DNA of 64,000 nt from Gemmatimonas phototrophica. Lineage in GTDB: Bacteria; Gemmatimonadota; Gemmatimonadetes; Gemmatimonadales; Gemmatimonadaceae. Both the position numbers and the translations under genes were made by a program. Below the pieces are notes generated by a model, which was given only the letters and a program-made list of their open reading frames with translations, did not search any database and was not told the origin of the DNA. How positions within the stretch are numbered: the first letter of the stretch is position 1; each line of letters begins with the position of its first letter. The DNA is taken from assembly GCF_000695095.2 (NCBI RefSeq), contig NZ_CP011454.1, forward strand, positions 1,116,001 through 1,180,000. The letters run 5' to 3'. Positions 42,017 through 51,796 of the stretch are shown piece after piece.

Positions 42017-42970
42017 CTAGCCCACGCAGCGCGTGCGTTCGTAGGTGAACGCGGCAATCCACGTGTCACCTTCGTAGCGGTAGCTGTACGTCACGAGTTC
42101 GGCCCGCGGGATTTTTTCTCCCAGTCCGAAGAACAGCTCGGCCCGTCCATCGCCGTCGCCATCCAATGCGCCAAGAAACCGTTTGCGTGGCGCAATGCGA
42201 CTGGAACTCACGTCGGCAATGATGAGGGATGGCTTGTAGCCGTAAATGCCCTTGTCGAGCACCACAATGAGCTGACGGGGCCGTTCCGCGAGTCGCGTGG
42301 CCCCCTCCGGAAGCTCTTCCGGATCTTCGTACGTAACCACGATGGTGGGACTGCGGGTGGCGCCCGTGCCGACGACCGCCACATCGCGGCGATAGCGCGA
42401 CATTTTTGACAGCGGTACGCCAGAAGACGGTGCCACCAGGGTCGTGACCACGTTCATCACATCCTGCAATTCCCCCTCACCAATACCGTTGGGTACCGTG
42501 CGCAGTGGCGTCCGGCCGCTGGTGAGCAGGTGTACGCCGTCGGGAATGCTCATGGCGGCTCCCGGCAGGAGCAGATTGCATCCGGGCAGTGAGTCGAGCG
42601 GGGTCCCTTCCCACATGCCCCGACTGCTACGGATCGGCGACAGCGCTTCGCTCCCCCGATAGGGCACAAACGCGCTTCCCGCTTGCATAGACTGCACATC
42701 CAGAGCACGCCATCCCCGACCGGTCAGCGTCAGAGCGCGCAAGCCGTTGGCGCCCACCGTGGCAAAGGGAACGGCGCGCGCGCCATCGGCAGTGCGTACG
42801 GCGCGAAACAGGACCATGGGCTGTCGCGCCAACACCGTGCTGTCGTTTTGCCAGGCGTTGTCGACCGGGGGCGGATTCAGGGCGCTCTTGATGCGGTCGC
42901 ACCCGGTCAGTGAGAACAGGGCGGCCAGCAGCGTGCCGGAGGCGAGGCGGATTCGTGGAGGACAGATCAC
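42017..42970 (-). CDS. Lipoprotein, unknown function
   Basis: About 317 residues from a GTG at 42970, or 329 from a GTG at 43006. A lipobox (FSLTGC) follows a short hydrophobic helix. The body is beta-rich, and one stretch, LDGDGDGRAELFFGLG near the C-terminus, is an acidic loop like the calcium-binding DxDxDG loops of FG-GAP/VCBS repeats. No family recognised. It is divergent from the NurA-HerA-SbcDC cluster. Confidence 0.75.
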   Translation of the reverse strand: MICPPRIRLASGTLLAALFSLTGCDRIKSALNPPPVDNAWQNDSTVLARQPMVLFRAVRTADGARAVPFATVGANGLRALTLTGRGWRALDVQSMQAGSAFVPYRGSEALSPIRSSRGMWEGTPLDSLPGCNLLLPGAAMSIPDGVHLLTSGRTPLRTVPNGIGEGELQDVMNVVTTLVAPSSGVPLSKMSRYRRDVAVVGTGATRSPTIVVTYEDPEELPEGATRLAERPRQLIVVLDKGIYGYKPSLIIADVSSSRIAPRKRFLGALDGDGDGRAELFFGLGEKIPRAELVTYSYRYEGDTWIAAFTYERTRCVG

Positions 42971-43069
42971 ACAGGCAGTTTCGTTCAGCCGGACCCGGAA
43001 GTCCACCGGTCAGCCATTCGCGGGGGCAGCTGAGTTGTGCCCGGCCCGCTGCCGCGCTAGCCTGTCCAC

Positions 43070-44137
43070 GTGACCTCCGTTGTACCAGTTGCCCACCCGA
43101 CGCCCCCTGAGGCGTCCGTCCATTCGGCGACGCTCACCGCCACCCTGCGGGCGCTGCGTCCGCTGCTGGCGGATCTGAATACCGCCCCGTTCGCCGATGG
43201 CGCCCCACTGGAGCGGCTGGTGATGCGGGCCGACACGCCGGTGGTGTCGTCGTGTCTCCCGCTCGAACCGGCGGGCGCAAAGGCGGTCGCCCCACGCGCC
43301 ACCCCGCTGGTCGCGGCGTTTCTTGACGGCATTCAGCGCAGCCGCGTGGTGGCTTATGCAGATGGCACGCCGCTCATTTTCGCGACCGTGGCAGCGGCGG
43401 TCCGGCAACGCACCAACGGCCACCTGGAGTCATGGGCGCTACCCCAGGTCCGTCGTCTCCTGTTGGCCTCCCGGGAAGCATTGGGGACGGCCCGGTGGGA
43501 ACAGCTGGTGGCGGCCGGTGTGGCGGTGGTGGATGTGGCGGACCACGGAGCTCCCGATGGCGAGCAGCACGAGGGGCTCTGGCACCCGCATGCATTGCGG
43601 GCCCGCGCGTTGGAGTTGGTGGCGCTGGAACGCGAACACCTCGAGCGACAGTTGGCGGCACAGTGGTGTGCCGAGGAAACGCGCTGGTTGTGGATTGACG
43701 GCGGCATCGCCGGCAACCTTGCACTGAGCGCCTCCAGCCCGGCCTTTGGTGTGGTCAAGTCACACAACACGCTCTACGGCGATGCCGCCGCGATTCGTCA
43801 GGTGCTGGCCCTTCGCGAAGGCGAACGCTCACCCGCGTTTCTGGTGGGATATCGTCCTCGGCAGGCGGTCGCCAGCTGGTATCTCCGCCTACGCGCTGCC
43901 GCGCACGGCGATCCGTTGTTCGGACTGGTGCGGGTGGAAGTCGCGCCGCCTGCCGAGGTCGCACACGGTAACGGTGGGCACGCGCAGCAGGCGGCGTTTA
44001 CCGCGCTCTGCGATGAACTGTCGTCTGCCATTGTGTTGGAACGTCATCCGGTGTCGCTGCCCGATGCGCGCTGGGATACACTCGCCTACGGCGTGCACGC
44101 CGTGGAAACTTACCTGCAAGCCCTGGTCGGTCCGTGA
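43070..44137 (+). CDS. nurA: NurA-like nuclease
   Basis: 355 residues from a GTG at 43070. I assign it to the NurA nuclease family from family features, the first Asp strand (LVAAFLDGIQRSRVVAYADG), a second acidic strand (WLWIDGGIAGN), GVVKSHNTLYGD, WYLRLRAAAHGDPLFGLVRVEV and the C-terminal DARWDTLAYGVHAVETYL, and from its position directly before a HerA-like ATPase gene, overlapping it by 4 nt (GTGA). NurA proteins are 5'-3' exonuclease/endonucleases that load onto a HerA hexamer to resect DNA ends. Sequence similarity within this family is low, so a profile search is needed to confirm it. Confidence 0.65.
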   Translation: MTSVVPVAHPTPPEASVHSATLTATLRALRPLLADLNTAPFADGAPLERLVMRADTPVVSSCLPLEPAGAKAVAPRATPLVAAFLDGIQRSRVVAYADGTPLIFATVAAAVRQRTNGHLESWALPQVRRLLLASREALGTARWEQLVAAGVAVVDVADHGAPDGEQHEGLWHPHALRARALELVALEREHLERQLAAQWCAEETRWLWIDGGIAGNLALSASSPAFGVVKSHNTLYGDAAAIRQVLALREGERSPAFLVGYRPRQAVASWYLRLRAAAHGDPLFGLVRVEVAPPAEVAHGNGGHAQQAAFTALCDELSSAIVLERHPVSLPDARWDTLAYGVHAVETYLQALVGP

Positions 44138-46125
44138 CGCACTCTCTGGTGCCCTCTCCCGTTGCGCCGTCGCGGTTGCCGCTTGGCCGTGTGGTGGCCA
44201 CGGAACGCAAGCCGAACACACCGCACGAGTTTCACTTCTGGACCGCCATTGATGCCCCGATCGGGATTGGCACCATTGTGCGCGTCGAAGGCACGACACC
44301 GGTGGAGTCCACGATCCCGCAGGTGTACGGTGTCGTGATGGAAGGGTTCAGCTATTCCGACCTGCAATCCCCGCTGCATGACGTACTGGGCTACGACGGA
44401 CAGCCCGCCGGCGGCGTGGTGGTGCCCACAGACCGCACCGAAATCCGCCTGTACACGGCACAGGTGCTGCGGCACCTGCCGGAAGAGCCGTTGCAGCCGG
44501 TCCCGCTCGGTCGCGTGTATCTGGCCGAGGATCACGATGTCGCGATGGCCCTCCGAATGGACGGCTACATCGCGGGGAGTGCCGCGACCGGCATTCCCGT
44601 GGGGGTCTATCGGGCCGGCGGGATGAAATCGCCCATTTTTCTTGACGCGGATTTTCTCGTCGGGCCCGAAGCCGCCCATCTGAATATTTCCGGCGTGTCC
44701 GGTCTCGCGACCAAAACGAGCGCGATCGAGTGGTTGCTGCAGTCGACCTTCGCGCACTTTCCGTCCCATCGCGGAACGGTCGCCGCGGTGTGTTTCAACG
44801 TGAAAGGTCCGGATCTGTGTTTCTTGGACCAGCCCGGGACGTTGGAAGAGAGCGACCGCGATATGTACGAACTGCTGGGGGTGCCTCCCACGCCTTTCCA
44901 GCAGGTGCGCTACTTCGCGCCGTACACAGCGCGTGGTTATGCGCTCAATACCTTGCGTTCCAATGAGGCACTTGCCGACACGGTGACGCCACTCACGTGG
45001 GGCCTCTCGGAAGTCCTGCAGTTTGCCGAGGTGCTGCTGAACAAGGATGATGTGGACGCCAAGGCCGACGCGCTCATCGACTTTATTCGTGAACGGGTGG
45101 TGGGCAAGGAGTTCGACGAGGCGGGTTTCTCACGCACCCATCGGGTACATTCCTTCGCCGATCTCGATGCGTGGTTCCGTGAAGTCCTGCGCAAGTTGGA
45201 AGACTCCAACGGTGATACCTGGCGTACCCATCACGCGGCCACCATCCGCAAGGTCCGCAACCGTCTGTCCAATCTCTCCACGCGCTGTGCCGGATTGGTC
45301 ACTGACGACGGATTGGCCTCGGATCTCCCTTTCGGGAGCTTCGAGGACCGCGTGGTGTACGTGGTGGATGTGGCCAACGTGGAAGAAGACGCGCAGAATC
45401 TGGTGTTCGCCCGGGTTGTCTCGAAGCTGCGCGAGCATCTCGAACGGCGCGATCTGGGCGTGGACCATGTGATCGTCTTCGTGGACGAACTCAACAAGTA
45501 TGCACCGCACGACGGTCCCGAGACATATGTGCGGAAGATGCTGCTCGATATCGCCGAACGTGGTCGCTACCTGGGGTTGGTGCTCTTTGGTGCGGAGCAA
45601 TTCCGCTCGCAGGTCCATCGGCGGGTGGTGGGCAATGCGGGGACGACCCTGTACGGTCGCATGGATGCCGACGAACTGGCCACTCCGGGGTACCAGGTGC
45701 TCAGCCCTGCGGTGAAGGCCCGTCTGGCCACGCTAGATAAGGGTCAACTCATGGTGCGTCATCCGCACTTCACGCAACCCGTCTTCATCCGATTCCCGAG
45801 GCCGGCGGTGATGACCGGTCGCGAAGGGGTGGAGCGCTTTCCGCAGGCGCCCGAGCCAACGGCGGCCCAGGCCGTGACGCGGGATCTTCGGCGCCTCGAC
45901 CCGAGTATCGAACTCGGTTGGGTGCAGCAAACCATTCTGCTGTACGATGAACCTGTTGTCCTCGCCGCCCGGAATGCCGTGATGCGTACCCGTCCCGATG
46001 CTGTCAAAAGTGCCTTTGTCCGCGAACTCCAGCGCCGGGCCGTCCCCACGGCCCGCGACGCTGAGGCTGTCGTGCATCGGCCGCGGGCCATCCGCCCATT
46101 CTCTGCCGACGAATACGGCGGGTGA
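44134..46125 (+). CDS. herA: HerA-like hexameric DNA-translocating ATPase
   Basis: 663 residues. An N-terminal HAS-barrel-like domain (PLGRVVATERKPNTPHEFHFW) precedes a FtsK/HerA-type RecA core. The Walker A region reads ISGVSGLATKTSAIEW, where Thr stands in place of the Gly before the P-loop Lys. The Walker B is VIVFVDELNKYAP. Further conserved parts: DIAERGRYLGLVLFGAEQFRSQVH and TTLYGRMDADEL. Expected to form a hexameric ring that pumps DNA and pairs with NurA. Overlaps both neighbours by 4 nt. It could act in double-strand-break resection with SbcCD or in defence; both are inference. Confidence 0.82.
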   Translation: MTHSLVPSPVAPSRLPLGRVVATERKPNTPHEFHFWTAIDAPIGIGTIVRVEGTTPVESTIPQVYGVVMEGFSYSDLQSPLHDVLGYDGQPAGGVVVPTDRTEIRLYTAQVLRHLPEEPLQPVPLGRVYLAEDHDVAMALRMDGYIAGSAATGIPVGVYRAGGMKSPIFLDADFLVGPEAAHLNISGVSGLATKTSAIEWLLQSTFAHFPSHRGTVAAVCFNVKGPDLCFLDQPGTLEESDRDMYELLGVPPTPFQQVRYFAPYTARGYALNTLRSNEALADTVTPLTWGLSEVLQFAEVLLNKDDVDAKADALIDFIRERVVGKEFDEAGFSRTHRVHSFADLDAWFREVLRKLEDSNGDTWRTHHAATIRKVRNRLSNLSTRCAGLVTDDGLASDLPFGSFEDRVVYVVDVANVEEDAQNLVFARVVSKLREHLERRDLGVDHVIVFVDELNKYAPHDGPETYVRKMLLDIAERGRYLGLVLFGAEQFRSQVHRRVVGNAGTTLYGRMDADELATPGYQVLSPAVKARLATLDKGQLMVRHPHFTQPVFIRFPRPAVMTGREGVERFPQAPEPTAAQAVTRDLRRLDPSIELGWVQQTILLYDEPVVLAARNAVMRTRPDAVKSAFVRELQRRAVPTARDAEAVVHRPRAIRPFSADEYGG

Positions 46126-47075
46126 GCGTCGTGGTGCGTTGGTGTTGGCGGCGACTTGTGGGCGCCCTGGGAGTGGTGGTACTGACGCCACTGCTGTTGC
46201 CGGCCGTGGCGCACGCGCAGCGCGGACGGCCGCGCGGCGGGGGCACCGAGGCCGTACGCCTCCTGGTCCGTCCCCGGGTTGGCGACACGCTGTACCTGCA
46301 GGTTGAGCAGACCGTGGAAGTGAGTGGCCGGAAGGTGGACGGGGCGCAGTCCAGCGTGCCGCCGGTTCTGCAGGGCAAGCGAGGTGCATCGCCTGCCCCC
46401 GAGTACGGTCCCCGGGTCAACCGGGCCAATACCCGGGTCACCAGGGTCCAGCTGTTTGCCCATTCGCTGGTCGAAGCGAGCGATCTGTCGGCCACCACCC
46501 TGTTGGCCACGACCGATTCCATCCGCATGTGGGCGGGTAATGCCGGCGATCCTGTGCGCCCCATGGTCGTTCCGGTGGAGGAGGACACGCGGTACGTGCG
46601 CGTGAAGGTCACGCCGGATGGGGCCATGCGCGTCAGTGATCCACCCACCGCACTGCCTCTGGGGGCTACGCTGGCTTCGGTCCCCGGCTTGCTCCCCGAT
46701 GGCCCCATCTCGGTAGGGAGTGAGTGGATGCGCGAAATGGTCCTGCCATCGCTGCCACTGGGGGCGTATCGGGCCGACGGCGTGGTGCAGGCGCGCCTCC
46801 GGCTTGATTCGCTCACAGGGGGAGGGCGTCAGGCGTGGATTTCGGTGTCCGGTGTGCTGCGTCGGGATGGGGCGGCCCGGGAACTCCCAACCGGCACGAG
46901 AGTGATTACCGCCGGCACCATGCGCGGCACCATGGTGGTGGACCGGACACGGGCATGGATTACCGATGCCCGGACGGTCATGGACGTGCAATCGGAAGTG
47001 GCCCCCGGGCCTGCCGGTGCCGGGACGCCCATGTTGCTCGATATCCGCATTGTCCAACGCGTCCGGGTGCGTTGA
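46122..47075 (+). CDS. Secreted protein embedded in the HerA-SbcDC cluster
   Basis: 317 residues from a GTG that overlaps the HerA stop (GTGA). The N-terminus is a signal peptide (RRLVGALGVVVLTPLLLPAVAHAQ). The mature part is beta-rich with repeated 'VGDTLYLQVEQTVEV', 'LPDGPISVGSEWMREMVLPSLPLG' and 'VLRRDGAARELPTGTRV' patterns like the DUF6263-type exported proteins; I do not recognise a definite family. Its location between cytoplasmic DNA-repair genes is unexpected. Confidence 0.7.
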   Translation: MSVVVRWCWRRLVGALGVVVLTPLLLPAVAHAQRGRPRGGGTEAVRLLVRPRVGDTLYLQVEQTVEVSGRKVDGAQSSVPPVLQGKRGASPAPEYGPRVNRANTRVTRVQLFAHSLVEASDLSATTLLATTDSIRMWAGNAGDPVRPMVVPVEEDTRYVRVKVTPDGAMRVSDPPTALPLGATLASVPGLLPDGPISVGSEWMREMVLPSLPLGAYRADGVVQARLRLDSLTGGGRQAWISVSGVLRRDGAARELPTGTRVITAGTMRGTMVVDRTRAWITDARTVMDVQSEVAPGPAGAGTPMLLDIRIVQRVRVR

Positions 47076-47121
47076 CGACCACCGCCGAACGGCGCCCCGG
47101 GGCGCCCGGTTAAGTTGTGGG

Positions 47122-48318
47122 ATGCGTATCGTCCATCTCGCCGACCTGCACCTTGGCTTCCGCCAATACCAGCGGCTGACGCCCGGCGGCATCAACCAGC
47201 GTGAAGCCGATGTGGCGGCCACCGTGCAGCGGGCCACCACGCACATCGTGGCGATCGCGCCGGAGCTCATCGTCATTGGCGGCGACATTTTTCACACCGT
47301 CCGTCCGTCCAATCCGGCCATTCTGCACGCATTCCGCGTGCTGATGCAGTTACGCGACCAATTGCCCGACACCCCCATCGTGATGGTGGCCGGCAATCAT
47401 GATGCGCCCCGGACCGCGGAGACCGGCTGCATTCTGCGCCTCTTCCGCGAAATCGGCGTGCATGTGGCCGATGCACAGGCGGAGCTGTTCACCTTTCCGG
47501 CCCGATCGCTGGCGGTTCTGGCCGTTCCCGATGTCCCGGGCATTGATCGGCCACCGCTACTGCCGCCGGACGGCTACACGCATCGTGTTCTGCTCTTGCA
47601 CGGCGAAGTCGCGGGACTGTTGCCGGCCCATGCGGCGTCGGCCGATCGCGCGGCCATTGAAATTCAGCCCGAAGAGTTGCACGCCGACCAGTGGAGTTAC
47701 GTGGCGTTGGGGCACTATCACGTGTATCGCGAAGTGGCCACTCGCGCCTATTACAGTGGTTCTCTGGACTACACCAGCAGCAATCCGTGGGGAGAGCTGC
47801 GCGAAGAGAAAGCGCAGGGGATCCCGGGCAAAGGCTTCATTGAGCACGATCTGGTCAGCGGTGCGCATCGGTTCCATCCGGTAGCCCCCTCGCGGCCGCT
47901 GCTTGACCTTGAGCCCATCGATGCCAGCGGCATGAGTGCTCAAGACCTCGATGGTGCCATTCGGGCCCGCGTGAATACCGCACCGGGGGGCATCGATGAT
48001 CGGGTCGTCCGTGTCACGGTGCGCAATGTGGCACGCCATATCGTGCGCGAGCTCGACCACGCGGCGCTGCGCGAGTATCGCAAGCGCGCGATGCATTTTC
48101 ATCTGGATACACGCCGTCCGGATCCGTTGCCGCGGCGCAAGGGAGACGGCGGGGGGGCAGGGAAGCGCGCGACACTCTCCGATATTGTGGCGGAGCAACT
48201 GCGCGAACGCGCGCTGCCCCCAGGCGTGGATCGCGAGCAGTTCGTGACGGTAGGGCTGCGCTATCTCAAGCAAGCGGAAGACGCCGCCATGGCCGCGCTG
48301 CCGGTGGTGGACGGCTGA
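47122..48318 (+). CDS. sbcD: SbcD/Mre11 nuclease subunit
   Basis: 398 residues, metallophosphatase exonuclease/endonuclease of the SbcCD (Mre11-Rad50) complex that trims DNA ends and hairpins. Metal-binding motifs in order: HLADLHLGF, IGGDIFH, VAGNHDAPR, LLLHGEVAG and YVALGHYHVY. The ATG at 47122 begins directly at motif I. The sequence is closer to the Mre11-type arrangement than to E. coli SbcD by eye. It is followed by sbcC after one base. Confidence 0.93.
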   Translation: MRIVHLADLHLGFRQYQRLTPGGINQREADVAATVQRATTHIVAIAPELIVIGGDIFHTVRPSNPAILHAFRVLMQLRDQLPDTPIVMVAGNHDAPRTAETGCILRLFREIGVHVADAQAELFTFPARSLAVLAVPDVPGIDRPPLLPPDGYTHRVLLLHGEVAGLLPAHAASADRAAIEIQPEELHADQWSYVALGHYHVYREVATRAYYSGSLDYTSSNPWGELREEKAQGIPGKGFIEHDLVSGAHRFHPVAPSRPLLDLEPIDASGMSAQDLDGAIRARVNTAPGGIDDRVVRVTVRNVARHIVRELDHAALREYRKRAMHFHLDTRRPDPLPRRKGDGGGAGKRATLSDIVAEQLRERALPPGVDREQFVTVGLRYLKQAEDAAMAALPVVDG

Positions 48319-48319
48319 T

Positions 48320-50815
48320 ATGCGACTTCTGTCTTTGCGACTGCAGAATTTTCGGCAACACGCCGACACGCACATCACGTTCGAACGCGGACTGACCGGC
48401 ATTATTGGCCCCAATGGGTCGGGCAAGTCCACGTTGCTGGAAGCCATTGCGTGGGCGCTGTACGGCAACCCTGCCGCCCGGGGGACGCGCGACAGCATCC
48501 GGTTTTCGCGCGCGGCGCCACGTTCTCCGGTGCGTGTGGAGCTGGCGTTTGAATTGGCGGGGCATCGCTATCGCGTGATTCGTGGGCTCACCAATGCCGA
48601 GGTGTATCTCGACGCCGGGGAGACCCCCATTGCCAACACGATTACCGGGGCAACGGAGCTGCTGCAGCGTCGGCTGGGGATGACGCGGGCCGAGTTTTTT
48701 CACACGTACTTCACGGGTCAGAAAGAGCTGGACATCATGGCGGCCCTTGGCGCCGCCGAACGCGCGCGCTTTTTGTCGCGGGTGCTGGGGTACGATCGCA
48801 TCAGTGGGGCCCAGGAGTTGGCGCGAGAACGTCGCCGGGCCATTCTGGCGGAGACCAATGGTCTCAAGCAGGGGATGCCGGATCCGGATGCCATCTGGCG
48901 CGCGGTCTCCGATGCCGAAGCCCGCGTGGCAGTGGCCCGTACCCGAGCGGCCGAAGCCGACGTGGCGCACCAGAGCGCTGCAGACAAGCTGACTGCACTG
49001 GTCCCGCGCTGGCAGGATGCGCAAGCGCAGCGCGACGCCCGGCAGCAGCTGGTGTCGGAGTTGCGCGTCGCCGAAAGCGAGGCGATGAGTTTTGCGCGCG
49101 ATGTGGAGCGACTGGATCGTGAGCTGGAGGCCATGGCCCAGGCGCACGAGGAGTTGCTGCCGCTGCGTGCGCAGATGACTGCGCTGCTCCCGGTGCGCGA
49201 GGCGTTGGTGGGGCAGGAGCAGCTGGCGGCGGCGGATGCCCGTCGGCAGGCCATGATGGAGCGCGTTGCGGCGTACGCTGAAGAAGACGCCAAGCTGTCC
49301 GAGCGTGCGGCTCGTCTGGAGAGTGCGCCGGCGCTCGAAGTTGACACCACCGCACAACTGCTGACACTGCGCAATGCTCTTGCCGAGGCCGAGCGGACCC
49401 TCAGTCAGGAGCGCGATTTGTGGTCGCGTGACCGGCAGGCGGCCGAGACGCGTCTCGAGACATTGCGGACGCAGTACGCCGAACTCACACGGCAGCGCGA
49501 AACGCTCGAAGGACTGGGCGAACAGAGCCCCTGTCCCACCTGCGGGCGGCCGCTGGGCACCAATTTTCACACGGTGCTGGATCAGCTCACGGAGCAGATC
49601 GAAACCTTACGGGTGGACGGCAACTACTATCGTCAGCGCACCGAGCAATTGACCGCGCTGCCGGCGGCTATTGAAGCGCTGGAGGAATCGCGGCGTACGG
49701 CGCAGGGGGAAGTGGCCGCTGCCGAGCGGCGGTTGCAGCGGATCCAGGATGCCATTGCCGAAGCGGCGCGCCTTTCCGAACAGCGGGCGCAGGTGACGCT
49801 GCGGTTGCAGGAGGCCACTGCGCAGCTGGCGCTGCTCCCTTCCGGATATGATGCCGCGCAGCACGCCGCCTTGCGTGCCGACGCAGCACGGTTGCAGGAA
49901 CTGGAGAACCGGGTGGCGCGGGTGAGTGGTCTCGTGGACCGGGAAGTGGCCGCGCGCTCAGAGCGCACCCGTGTGCTGGTCGCCCGCGACAGTGCACGAG
50001 CCCGGATGATGTCACTCGAGACACAGCAGGCGGCGTTGGGGATGGACGATGGGACGTACGCCAGTGTACGGGACGCCTACGACACGGCGGCGGCCGAAGG
50101 TCGCCGGGCGGAACTGGAGGCGCTGGCCGCGTCCGGCGAAGCGGAGCGCGCTCGCGCCGCGCTCGACGTGGCGGAACAGGGGCGCCGCGACCTGGCGCGG
50201 TTGCAGGGGACGTTGGATACGCTGGATACGGAGAAACGCCTGCATGATGAACTGGATCGCGCGCTCACGGATCTTCGCACCGATCTGAATTTTCAGCTCC
50301 GCCCGGAATTGGCCGACATCGCCAGTCGCTTTCTGGATGACCTTACCGACGGCCGGTATACCCATCTCGAATTCGATGAGGAGTACCGACTGCTGGTTCT
50401 GGAAGATGGTTTGCCGAAACCCGTGATCTCCGGTGGCGAAGAAGACCTGTGCAACCTGGTGCTCCGTCTCGCGATTTCGCAGATGATTGCCGAGCGGGCG
50501 GGGCAGGCATTCTCGCTGCTGATCCTGGACGAAGTGTTCGGGTCGCTGGACGAAACGCGGCGGGCCAACGTGGTGGAGTTGTTGCGCAAGCTCAATGATC
50601 GATTTGAGCAGGTCATTGTCATCACGCATATCGAACAGGTGCGTGAGGGGCTGGACCGGGTATTGCTGGTGCACTTTGATGAGACCCGGGGATGCAGTGT
50701 CGTCACCGGCGGCGTACGTTTGCCCGTCGAAGATGCGCTGGGAGGAGACGCGCAGGCTGCGCTCCCGTTGTTGGACGATGAGAGCGAGGATCCGCTCTCC
50801 CTTGCCGAGGCGTAA
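48320..50815 (+). CDS. sbcC: SbcC/Rad50 ATPase subunit
   Basis: 831 residues. Walker A IIGPNGSGKSTLLEAIAW at the N-terminus, two long coiled coils flanking a zinc hook (SPCPTCGRPLG, about residue 410), ABC signature VISGGEEDLCNLVLRLAIS and Walker B FSLLILDEVFGSLDE at the C-terminus. Shorter coiled coils than E. coli SbcC (1048 residues), nearer the archaeal Rad50 length. ATP-driven partner of SbcD that tethers DNA ends. Confidence 0.94.
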   Translation: MRLLSLRLQNFRQHADTHITFERGLTGIIGPNGSGKSTLLEAIAWALYGNPAARGTRDSIRFSRAAPRSPVRVELAFELAGHRYRVIRGLTNAEVYLDAGETPIANTITGATELLQRRLGMTRAEFFHTYFTGQKELDIMAALGAAERARFLSRVLGYDRISGAQELARERRRAILAETNGLKQGMPDPDAIWRAVSDAEARVAVARTRAAEADVAHQSAADKLTALVPRWQDAQAQRDARQQLVSELRVAESEAMSFARDVERLDRELEAMAQAHEELLPLRAQMTALLPVREALVGQEQLAAADARRQAMMERVAAYAEEDAKLSERAARLESAPALEVDTTAQLLTLRNALAEAERTLSQERDLWSRDRQAAETRLETLRTQYAELTRQRETLEGLGEQSPCPTCGRPLGTNFHTVLDQLTEQIETLRVDGNYYRQRTEQLTALPAAIEALEESRRTAQGEVAAAERRLQRIQDAIAEAARLSEQRAQVTLRLQEATAQLALLPSGYDAAQHAALRADAARLQELENRVARVSGLVDREVAARSERTRVLVARDSARARMMSLETQQAALGMDDGTYASVRDAYDTAAAEGRRAELEALAASGEAERARAALDVAEQGRRDLARLQGTLDTLDTEKRLHDELDRALTDLRTDLNFQLRPELADIASRFLDDLTDGRYTHLEFDEEYRLLVLEDGLPKPVISGGEEDLCNLVLRLAISQMIAERAGQAFSLLILDEVFGSLDETRRANVVELLRKLNDRFEQVIVITHIEQVREGLDRVLLVHFDETRGCSVVTGGVRLPVEDALGGDAQAALPLLDDESEDPLSLAEA

Positions 50816-50818
50816 GTG

Positions 50819-51796
50819 ATGACCGTAACCTCCCGCCCGTATCGCAGCGCCCGTCCCGTGGAAGGCCCGTTCGTGGCCGCAACGAGCGACATCCCGCAGC
50901 TCAATGAGGTGTTCACCGAGGCGTTTACGGAGCGCTACCGCAAGGACGGCATGACCGGGGTGCGGGTGCCGCCGCTCAATCCATCCATTTGGCAGTACGC
51001 CATTGAAGATGCCGGTGACGGTGCCCTCTGCTGGCGTGATGAGCGTGGGCGGGTGGTGGCGTTCAACATGGCGCACCATTCCGGTACGGAAGGATGGATG
51101 GGGCCGCTGTGTGTCCGGCCTGATCAGCAGGGCGTGGGGCTGGGGAAGATCATTGTGCAGAGCGGCATGCGTTGGTTGCGCCAGCAGCAGGCCCGCGTGA
51201 TTGGGCTGGAGACGATGCCCCGCACCATGGACAACATCGGGTTCTACTCCAACCTGGGCTTCGTGCCCGGGCACCTCACGGTCACGCTGACGCTGGAGGC
51301 TGCCGCCGGCGACCACCGTCCGCGGCTTCTGTCCCAACTGTCGGCGTCAGACAAGAACCTGACCATGCAGGCGTGCCTGGCGCTTACGGCGCGGGTCATG
51401 CCGGGCTACGACTTCACCCGGGAGATCGAAATTACGGATCGGCTTGGGCTCGGCGACACGCTGCTCCTGGGGACACCGGAGGCACCGACGGGTTTTGCGG
51501 TGTGCCACACGGCGCCGCTGGTGGAGGGGCGTAATCGCGATGAGCTCCGGGTGCTGAAGCTGGTGTTGGCCCGCCGCGCGGAGCTCCCGCTCATGATGGG
51601 CGCGCTCACGGAACTGGCCCGCCGGTCCGGAACGCGTCGGCTGGCGGTCAGGCTGCAAGGGGACTATCCGGAGGCGTATCGCACGCTCGTCGCGCTGGGC
51701 GCTCGCGTGCGGTGGACCGACCTGCGCATGAGCGCGCATGGCTGGAACGAAGTCCCACCCAGCGACGGAATGGTACTGTCGAACTGGGAGATCTGA
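50819..51796 (+). CDS. GNAT-family N-acetyltransferase
   Basis: 325 residues from the ATG at 50819 (a GTG sits at 50816). The GNAT acetyl-CoA motif is GPLCVRPDQQGVGLGKIIVQSGMRW, with a following 'IGFYSNLGFVPGHLTV'. The C-terminal 150 residues form a second, GNAT-like domain without a clear acetyl-CoA loop. The substrate is unknown. It follows sbcC by three bases and may be co-transcribed with it. Confidence 0.85.
   Translation: MTVTSRPYRSARPVEGPFVAATSDIPQLNEVFTEAFTERYRKDGMTGVRVPPLNPSIWQYAIEDAGDGALCWRDERGRVVAFNMAHHSGTEGWMGPLCVRPDQQGVGLGKIIVQSGMRWLRQQQARVIGLETMPRTMDNIGFYSNLGFVPGHLTVTLTLEAAAGDHRPRLLSQLSASDKNLTMQACLALTARVMPGYDFTREIEITDRLGLGDTLLLGTPEAPTGFAVCHTAPLVEGRNRDELRVLKLVLARRAELPLMMGALTELARRSGTRRLAVRLQGDYPEAYRTLVALGARVRWTDLRMSAHGWNEVPPSDGMVLSNWEI

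Follow-up and report, generated by a model that had tools for sequence, protein, structure and literature searches.

A probable bacterial counterpart, in Gemmatimonas phototrophica, of the archaeal mre11-rad50-herA-nurA operon for end resection

In the standard account of bacterial DNA-end resection, the work is done by RecBCD or AddAB, together with RecJ-RecQ, and RecBCD consists of a UvrD-like helicase and a PD-(D/E)XK nuclease. In archaea such as Sulfolobus, Pyrococcus and Thermococcus, nurA, herA, mre11 and rad50 stand in one row on one strand, and in Sulfolobus islandicus the four genes constitute an operon of which each member is essential (PMC4351679). Among bacteria, the NurA-HerA complex of Deinococcus radiodurans (7f6d, 7wrw, 7wrx) resects 5' ends in vitro (PMC9960219), and the joint action of SbcCD and NurA-HerA has been stated to be unresolved for that genus (PMC4663267). 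In the thermophile Oceanithermus profundus, sbcD and sbcC lie downstream of HerA in a nurA-hepA-sbcD-sbcC row, which was interpreted as an archaeal-like architecture that arose by local recruitment (PMC5448004).

The locus considered here belongs to Gemmatimonas phototrophica and lies in a window, by which we mean the whole stretch of 64,000 nucleotides that was analysed, within the single 4.72-Mb contig of a genome that is 99.96% complete. Like the archaeal operon, it unites these four functions in a single row of genes read from one strand, with an SbcC and an SbcD whose nearest PDB relatives are archaeal; it differs in its gene order, in the bacterial (Deinococcus) type of its NurA and HerA, in the presence of RecBCD in the same host, and in the dispensability of NurA-HerA in sister species, whereas all four genes are essential in Sulfolobus islandicus. 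From Deinococcus it differs in that SbcCD is not adjacent to NurA-HerA in Deinococcales and Thermus. The task proposed for the set, turning a double-strand end into one with a 3' tail, is that of RecBCD/AddAB, but the HerA ring and the RNase-H-like NurA of the host are unrelated to the proteins of those systems. Oceanithermus represents one bacterial four-gene case that was already published, in a single thermophile; the wider spread, over many mesophilic bacteria, and a second gene order, HerA-SbcD-SbcC-NurA, come from the survey described below. The features of the locus, in window coordinates, are as follows.

42017-43006, minus strand: divergent lipoprotein-like gene, bordering on the left both the cluster and, in relatives, the empty site
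43070-44137, plus strand: NurA nuclease, 355 aa, GTG start (profile and predicted fold)
43319-43330, plus strand: NurA motif FLDG, containing D86
43691-43702, plus strand: NurA motif WIDG, containing D210
43754-43765, plus strand: NurA motif VKSH, containing K230
44134-46125, plus strand: HerA, hexameric ATPase/translocase by similarity, 663 aa (phmmer to D. radiodurans HerA)
44692-44721, plus strand: HerA variant P-loop GVSGLATKTS
45475-45501, plus strand: HerA Walker B VFVDELNKY
46122-47075, plus strand: interposed gene, 317 aa, signal-peptide-like start
47122-48318, plus strand: SbcD, Mre11-like nuclease, 398 aa (HMM and motifs)
48320-50815, plus strand: SbcC, Rad50-like ATPase, 831 aa (HMM and motifs)
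48407-48430, plus strand: SbcC Walker A
49532-49543, plus strand: SbcC zinc hook CPTC
50429-50446, plus strand: SbcC signature SGGEED
50516-50533, plus strand: SbcC Walker B
50816-51796, plus strand: GNAT acetyltransferase (Acetyltransf_1, 4.7e-11), starting directly at the end of SbcC

The first gene of the row is without a match in Pfam, NCBIfam and PADLOC, and PF09376, the profile by which the original prediction had proposed to verify it, matches nothing in the host genome, nor any of nine relatives. This is a false negative, as the tests by family profile and by fold were both positive. A profile of 18 members, built from relatives of the window protein, retrieved drNurA (7f6d_H, E 1.6e-4) and, at E 0.22, Thermotoga NurA. 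The AlphaFold2 model (pLDDT 84, pTM 0.84) has a predicted RNase-H-like core, and its three Foldseek matches in the PDB below 1e-3 are all NurA chains, with 7f6d_G the best (E 7.6e-13) and 1zup_A at E 9.5e-10. Because the family profile finds drNurA and the predicted fold matches NurA structures, the gene is a NurA, PF09376 being simply too insensitive to recognise it. K230 aligns with residue 221 of 7f6d_H, which by manual count is drNurA K201 once the 20-aa tag is subtracted, and drNurA K201 is essential for nuclease activity; the fold and the catalytic lysine are shared with drNurA. D86 aligns with FVDG in Thermus-type NurA and is probably equivalent to the catalytic D53 of drNurA. Both the aspartate and the lysine expected of a NurA are accordingly in place, the motifs are conserved across phyla, and nurA stands next to herA both here and in relatives. 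A first gene without a NurA hit and a neighbourhood not conserved in close relatives had been named in advance as counting against the cluster; the Pfam match is indeed absent, but NurA was identified by other means and the gene order is conserved in relatives across the bacterial order.

For HerA, the only one in the host genome, D. radiodurans HerA is the sole PDB match at E up to 1 (phmmer, E 5.9e-47; 37% identity). The match runs over the full length and the protein has the HAS barrel, RecA-like ATPase and Walker residues of resection-type HerA: GISGVATKTS in the P-loop of drHerA is GVSGLATKTS here, and the Walker B acids are retained, so that the ATPase residues are the same. The roles of drHerA K175, T176, D487 and E488 have been described (PMC9960219). 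R495 and R552, which are basic pore residues in drHerA, are by manual count not retained. By analogy, the window HerA is predicted to assemble into a hexameric ring, translocating DNA and activating NurA. In PADLOC, its score against the HerA model is only 12 bits, and it has a weak similarity to mad8 of the MADS defence system (31 bits).

SbcD matches Metallophos (1.9e-9) and TIGR00619 (2.6e-19; 70.0 bits, just below the cut-off of 77.65), contains all the phosphoesterase motifs, and has archaeal Mre11 as its closest PDB match (1.3e-11). In SbcC, which has both ABC ATPase halves, the signature and the zinc hook of the SbcCD/Mre11-Rad50 type, the Rad50 model PRK03918 (2e-47) outscores the sbcc model TIGR00618 (4.4e-30), and the closest PDB match is archaeal Rad50 (4.8e-29). 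The similarity of SbcC to mad3 of MADS in PADLOC (124 bits) is stronger than that of HerA to mad8. Identities, motifs and predicted fold together support the archaeal-like four-function set, with a resection-type NurA and HerA, that the original prediction had put forward.

The open frames of the window confirm that the four genes lie on the plus strand where they had been placed, in the direction NurA, HerA, SbcD, SbcC, with one unrelated gene interposed between HerA and SbcD. That fifth gene had been overlooked in the description of a packed row of just four, and two claimed 4-nt overlaps need the same revision: both are present in the DNA, each as GTGA, the one joining NurA to HerA and the other joining HerA to the interposed gene, not to SbcD. 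A gap of 46 nt precedes SbcD, 1 nt separates SbcD from SbcC, and 0 nt separates SbcC from the GNAT gene. The four genes may be co-transcribed, but the 46-nt gap and the interposed gene before SbcD could reflect separate transcription. A promoter scan returned one weak site and none 5' of NurA, a count not above that in shuffles; terminator-like sites number 12, against a shuffle mean of 6.6, with short stems and mostly intragenic locations. No Rfam family and no tRNA was recognised anywhere in the window.

Among 61 genomes of the order, 58 gave a match for SbcC, 42 for HerA and 37 for NurA; HerA and SbcC are mostly 1-4 kb apart, and nearly all HerA-bearing relatives retain the NurA-HerA-SbcD-SbcC order. 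The consensus locus reads aminotransferase, AsnC, lipoprotein gene (minus strand), NurA, HerA, (extra gene), SbcD, SbcC, GNAT, QueD, FolE. Families f1 and f2 have NurA-HerA at the same syntenic place, and family f3 has SbcDC only. Eight members of the host genus (G001, G003, G004, G005, G016, G021, G023 and G026), in all of which the locus is assembled through, have cleanly no NurA-HerA and keep SbcD-SbcC; sequence comparison at six of the eight empty sites revealed no significant NurA or HerA remnants. Four further genomes of the order (G041, G049, G053, G060) have HerA beside SbcD-SbcC (loci L055, L056, L160 and L161) and no NurA detected by profile search in the whole genome. In G041, a 169-aa protein of no assigned family takes NurA's place and overlaps HerA by 4 nt. 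The NurA-HerA set is therefore not obligatory, since SbcDC persists without it in eight genus members and HerA occurs without NurA in these four genomes.

By parsimony on an unrooted SbcD+SbcC+GNAT tree, which does not give the direction of change, the presence of HerA requires no fewer than 5 changes within the genus (4 without the truncated draft G019) and 9 within the order (8 without G019). HerA distances correlate with those of SbcD and GNAT at r 0.96, and HerA and NurA distances with those of SbcD at r 0.93-0.96. Because HerA distances follow those of SbcD and GNAT, vertical descent with repeated losses appears preferable to repeated import.

Beyond the order, GTDB species contigs were searched using an alignment of HerA proteins headed by drHerA. 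The best 80 loci, not a census, were chosen by HerA similarity alone, after which NurA, SbcD and SbcC were sought by iterated profile search. In 44 of these best 80, all three share the strand of HerA and lie within some 10 kb, so the premise that bacterial sbcDC and HerA-NurA are usually apart does not hold for this HerA-selected set; a lone SbcC gene placed at random in a genome of this size would come as close as 10 kb to HerA in about 0.4% of cases (20 kb out of 4.7 Mb). The four-gene loci among the best 80 span at least five phyla and come in two gene orders. NurA-HerA-SbcD-SbcC accounts for 12 (Cyanobacteriota 5, Deinococcota 4, Acidobacteriota 2, Actinomycetota 1), and HerA-SbcD-SbcC-NurA for 32: 24 Actinomycetota, including the complete chromosome of Dactylosporangium roseum, 5 Gemmatimonadota, and 3 labelled Gammaproteobacteria, one of which clusters with Gemmatimonadota in the HerA tree. 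In that quick tree, whose long branches make it a guide to coarse features only, the latter order forms one clade with 99% support. NurA-HerA without SbcDC nearby occurs in Thermus, Meiothermus and Deinococcales, and HerA alone in Pseudanabaena, again within the best 80. The cluster is thus not peculiar to the host chromosome and is more widespread than had been supposed; its arrangement is not due to chance, because the order is conserved within the bacterial order and in other phyla. Long RecB/AddB-family frames are present in most four-gene genomes too. The Gemmatimonadota with the HerA-SbcD-SbcC-NurA order (L086, L101, L104, L107, L127) have HerAs that group with Actinomycetota, far from the clade of the window HerA, so that two versions exist in one phylum.

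The relation to the classical systems can be addressed directly in the host, which encodes RecO as well as the following row.

G000:C1 about 3875-3884 kb (7029-16044 of L039), minus strand: RecBCD row

RecC, RecB and RecD of this row score 700, 769 and 491 bits, each above its NCBIfam equivalog cut-off. Of the alternatives raised in the original prediction, that the cluster acts in addition to, or instead of, RecBCD/AddAB, only the former stands: with full RecBCD in the host, NurA-HerA-SbcDC is additional and not a replacement, and replacement is not general elsewhere either. Among the genomes of the order, RecC is confined to the host genus and G032, a narrow distribution of RecBCD that suggests its acquisition. 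AddAB-like pairs occur in G031, G046 and G049. RecC is present in 8/8 of the genus members with an empty locus and in G019, and also in nearly all HerA-bearing genus members; G028, about half complete, was left out of the scoring. Among 43 good genomes, those with RecBCD or AddAB have HerA in 9 cases and lack it in 10, and those with neither have it in 20 and lack it in 4 (Fisher p 0.02, kinship not counted). Independent pairs, typically 2 for, 0 against and 5 uninformative, gave no significance, so strict complementarity of HerA and RecBCD/AddAB lies in the expected direction but is not significant once kinship is counted. It is reasonable to suppose that RecBCD permits the loss of NurA-HerA. 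Family f3 and G043 have no HerA, and mostly no RecBCD/AddAB was found in them; a PF12705 match in G043 was discarded since, judged by eye, it lies in a Cas4/Cas1-like frame. Two sisters, both drafts, are reversed in content: G008 (L141) has NurA-HerA and no RecC was found, and G019 (L148), whose locus is interrupted by a contig end, has RecC and no HerA was found.

We consider the cluster a probable bacterial counterpart of the archaeal mre11-rad50-herA-nurA operon for end resection, inherited vertically within this bacterial order, in which NurA-HerA serves as a dispensable parallel motor. On the model of archaeal and Deinococcus biochemistry (PMC4351679, PMC9960219), SbcD-SbcC, being Mre11-Rad50-like, would recognise a double-strand end and clear blocked ends or hairpins; the HerA hexamer would then load and pump the duplex into the NurA dimer, which would cut the 5' strand to leave a 3' single-stranded tail, onto which RecFOR would load RecA. 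Both the 5'-strand polarity in the host species and a physical cooperation of HerA-NurA with SbcCD are expected by that analogy. The machine would run alongside complete RecBCD, and its NurA-HerA half could be lost where RecBCD is present.

The main rival holds that the two halves are adjacent but serve separate pathways, SbcCD performing its usual removal of hairpins and protein blocks and NurA-HerA acting separately, for instance in DNA uptake or transfer. The loss of NurA-HerA as a block while SbcD-SbcC stays, the SbcDC-only state of family f3 and the genomes with HerA but no detected NurA all agree with it, as does the requirement for HepA (HerA) in DNA donation by Thermus, where it also influences transformation (PMC5448004). 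The little effect of nurA or herA deletion on radiation resistance in Deinococcus (PMC9960219, PMC4663267) counts against the resection reading. Yet a linkage that recurs across several phyla, and in two gene orders, is not expected of mere neighbourhood, and archaeal HerA is reported to bind Mre11 (PMC2288612); weakened by the recurrent linkage, the separate-pathway reading seems unlikely.

As for the patchiness itself, repeated import of NurA-HerA into a single site by horizontal transfer would be compatible with an unrooted parsimony that gives no direction, but the same syntenic position in f1 and f2, and distances that follow SbcD and GNAT, make it quite improbable. An anti-phage cassette combining HerA with an SMC-like ATPase could draw on the HerA pairs known from defence systems (PMC11291478), the patchy presence inside the genus and the weak PADLOC similarities to mad8 and mad3. 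The window HerA, however, matches the Deinococcus resection HerA and no defence HerA in the PDB at E up to 1, its partner is NurA, and the locus is fixed in relatives between aminotransferase/AsnC and GNAT/QueD/FolE, with distances following its neighbours, unlike a mobile defence island. The locus does not pair HerA with a defence effector, nor does it behave as a variable island, and we regard a defence role as very improbable.

More tentatively, NurA-HerA-SbcD-SbcC may be a widespread bacterial end-resection machine in two fixed orders, working beside RecBCD, AddAB or AdnAB and dispensable when those are present; this broader proposal is possible but rather doubtful. Were it true, the natural losses in the genus would be a ready genetic test of function. 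An archaeal-kind row in several bacterial phyla makes cooperation of SbcCD with NurA-HerA directly testable in bacteria, and the host genus offers natural pairs with and without NurA-HerA at one syntenic locus, in a RecBCD background.

Two neighbours complete the locus. The interposed gene, for which no family scored above cut-off, occurs in the majority of the genus and in part of the family, and is missing in several genomes that retain the other four; as far as can be told, it lies outside the resection set. It remains beside SbcD where NurA-HerA is gone. Nearly every locus inspected, across three families of the order, has the GNAT gene after SbcC, loci that lack NurA-HerA among them.
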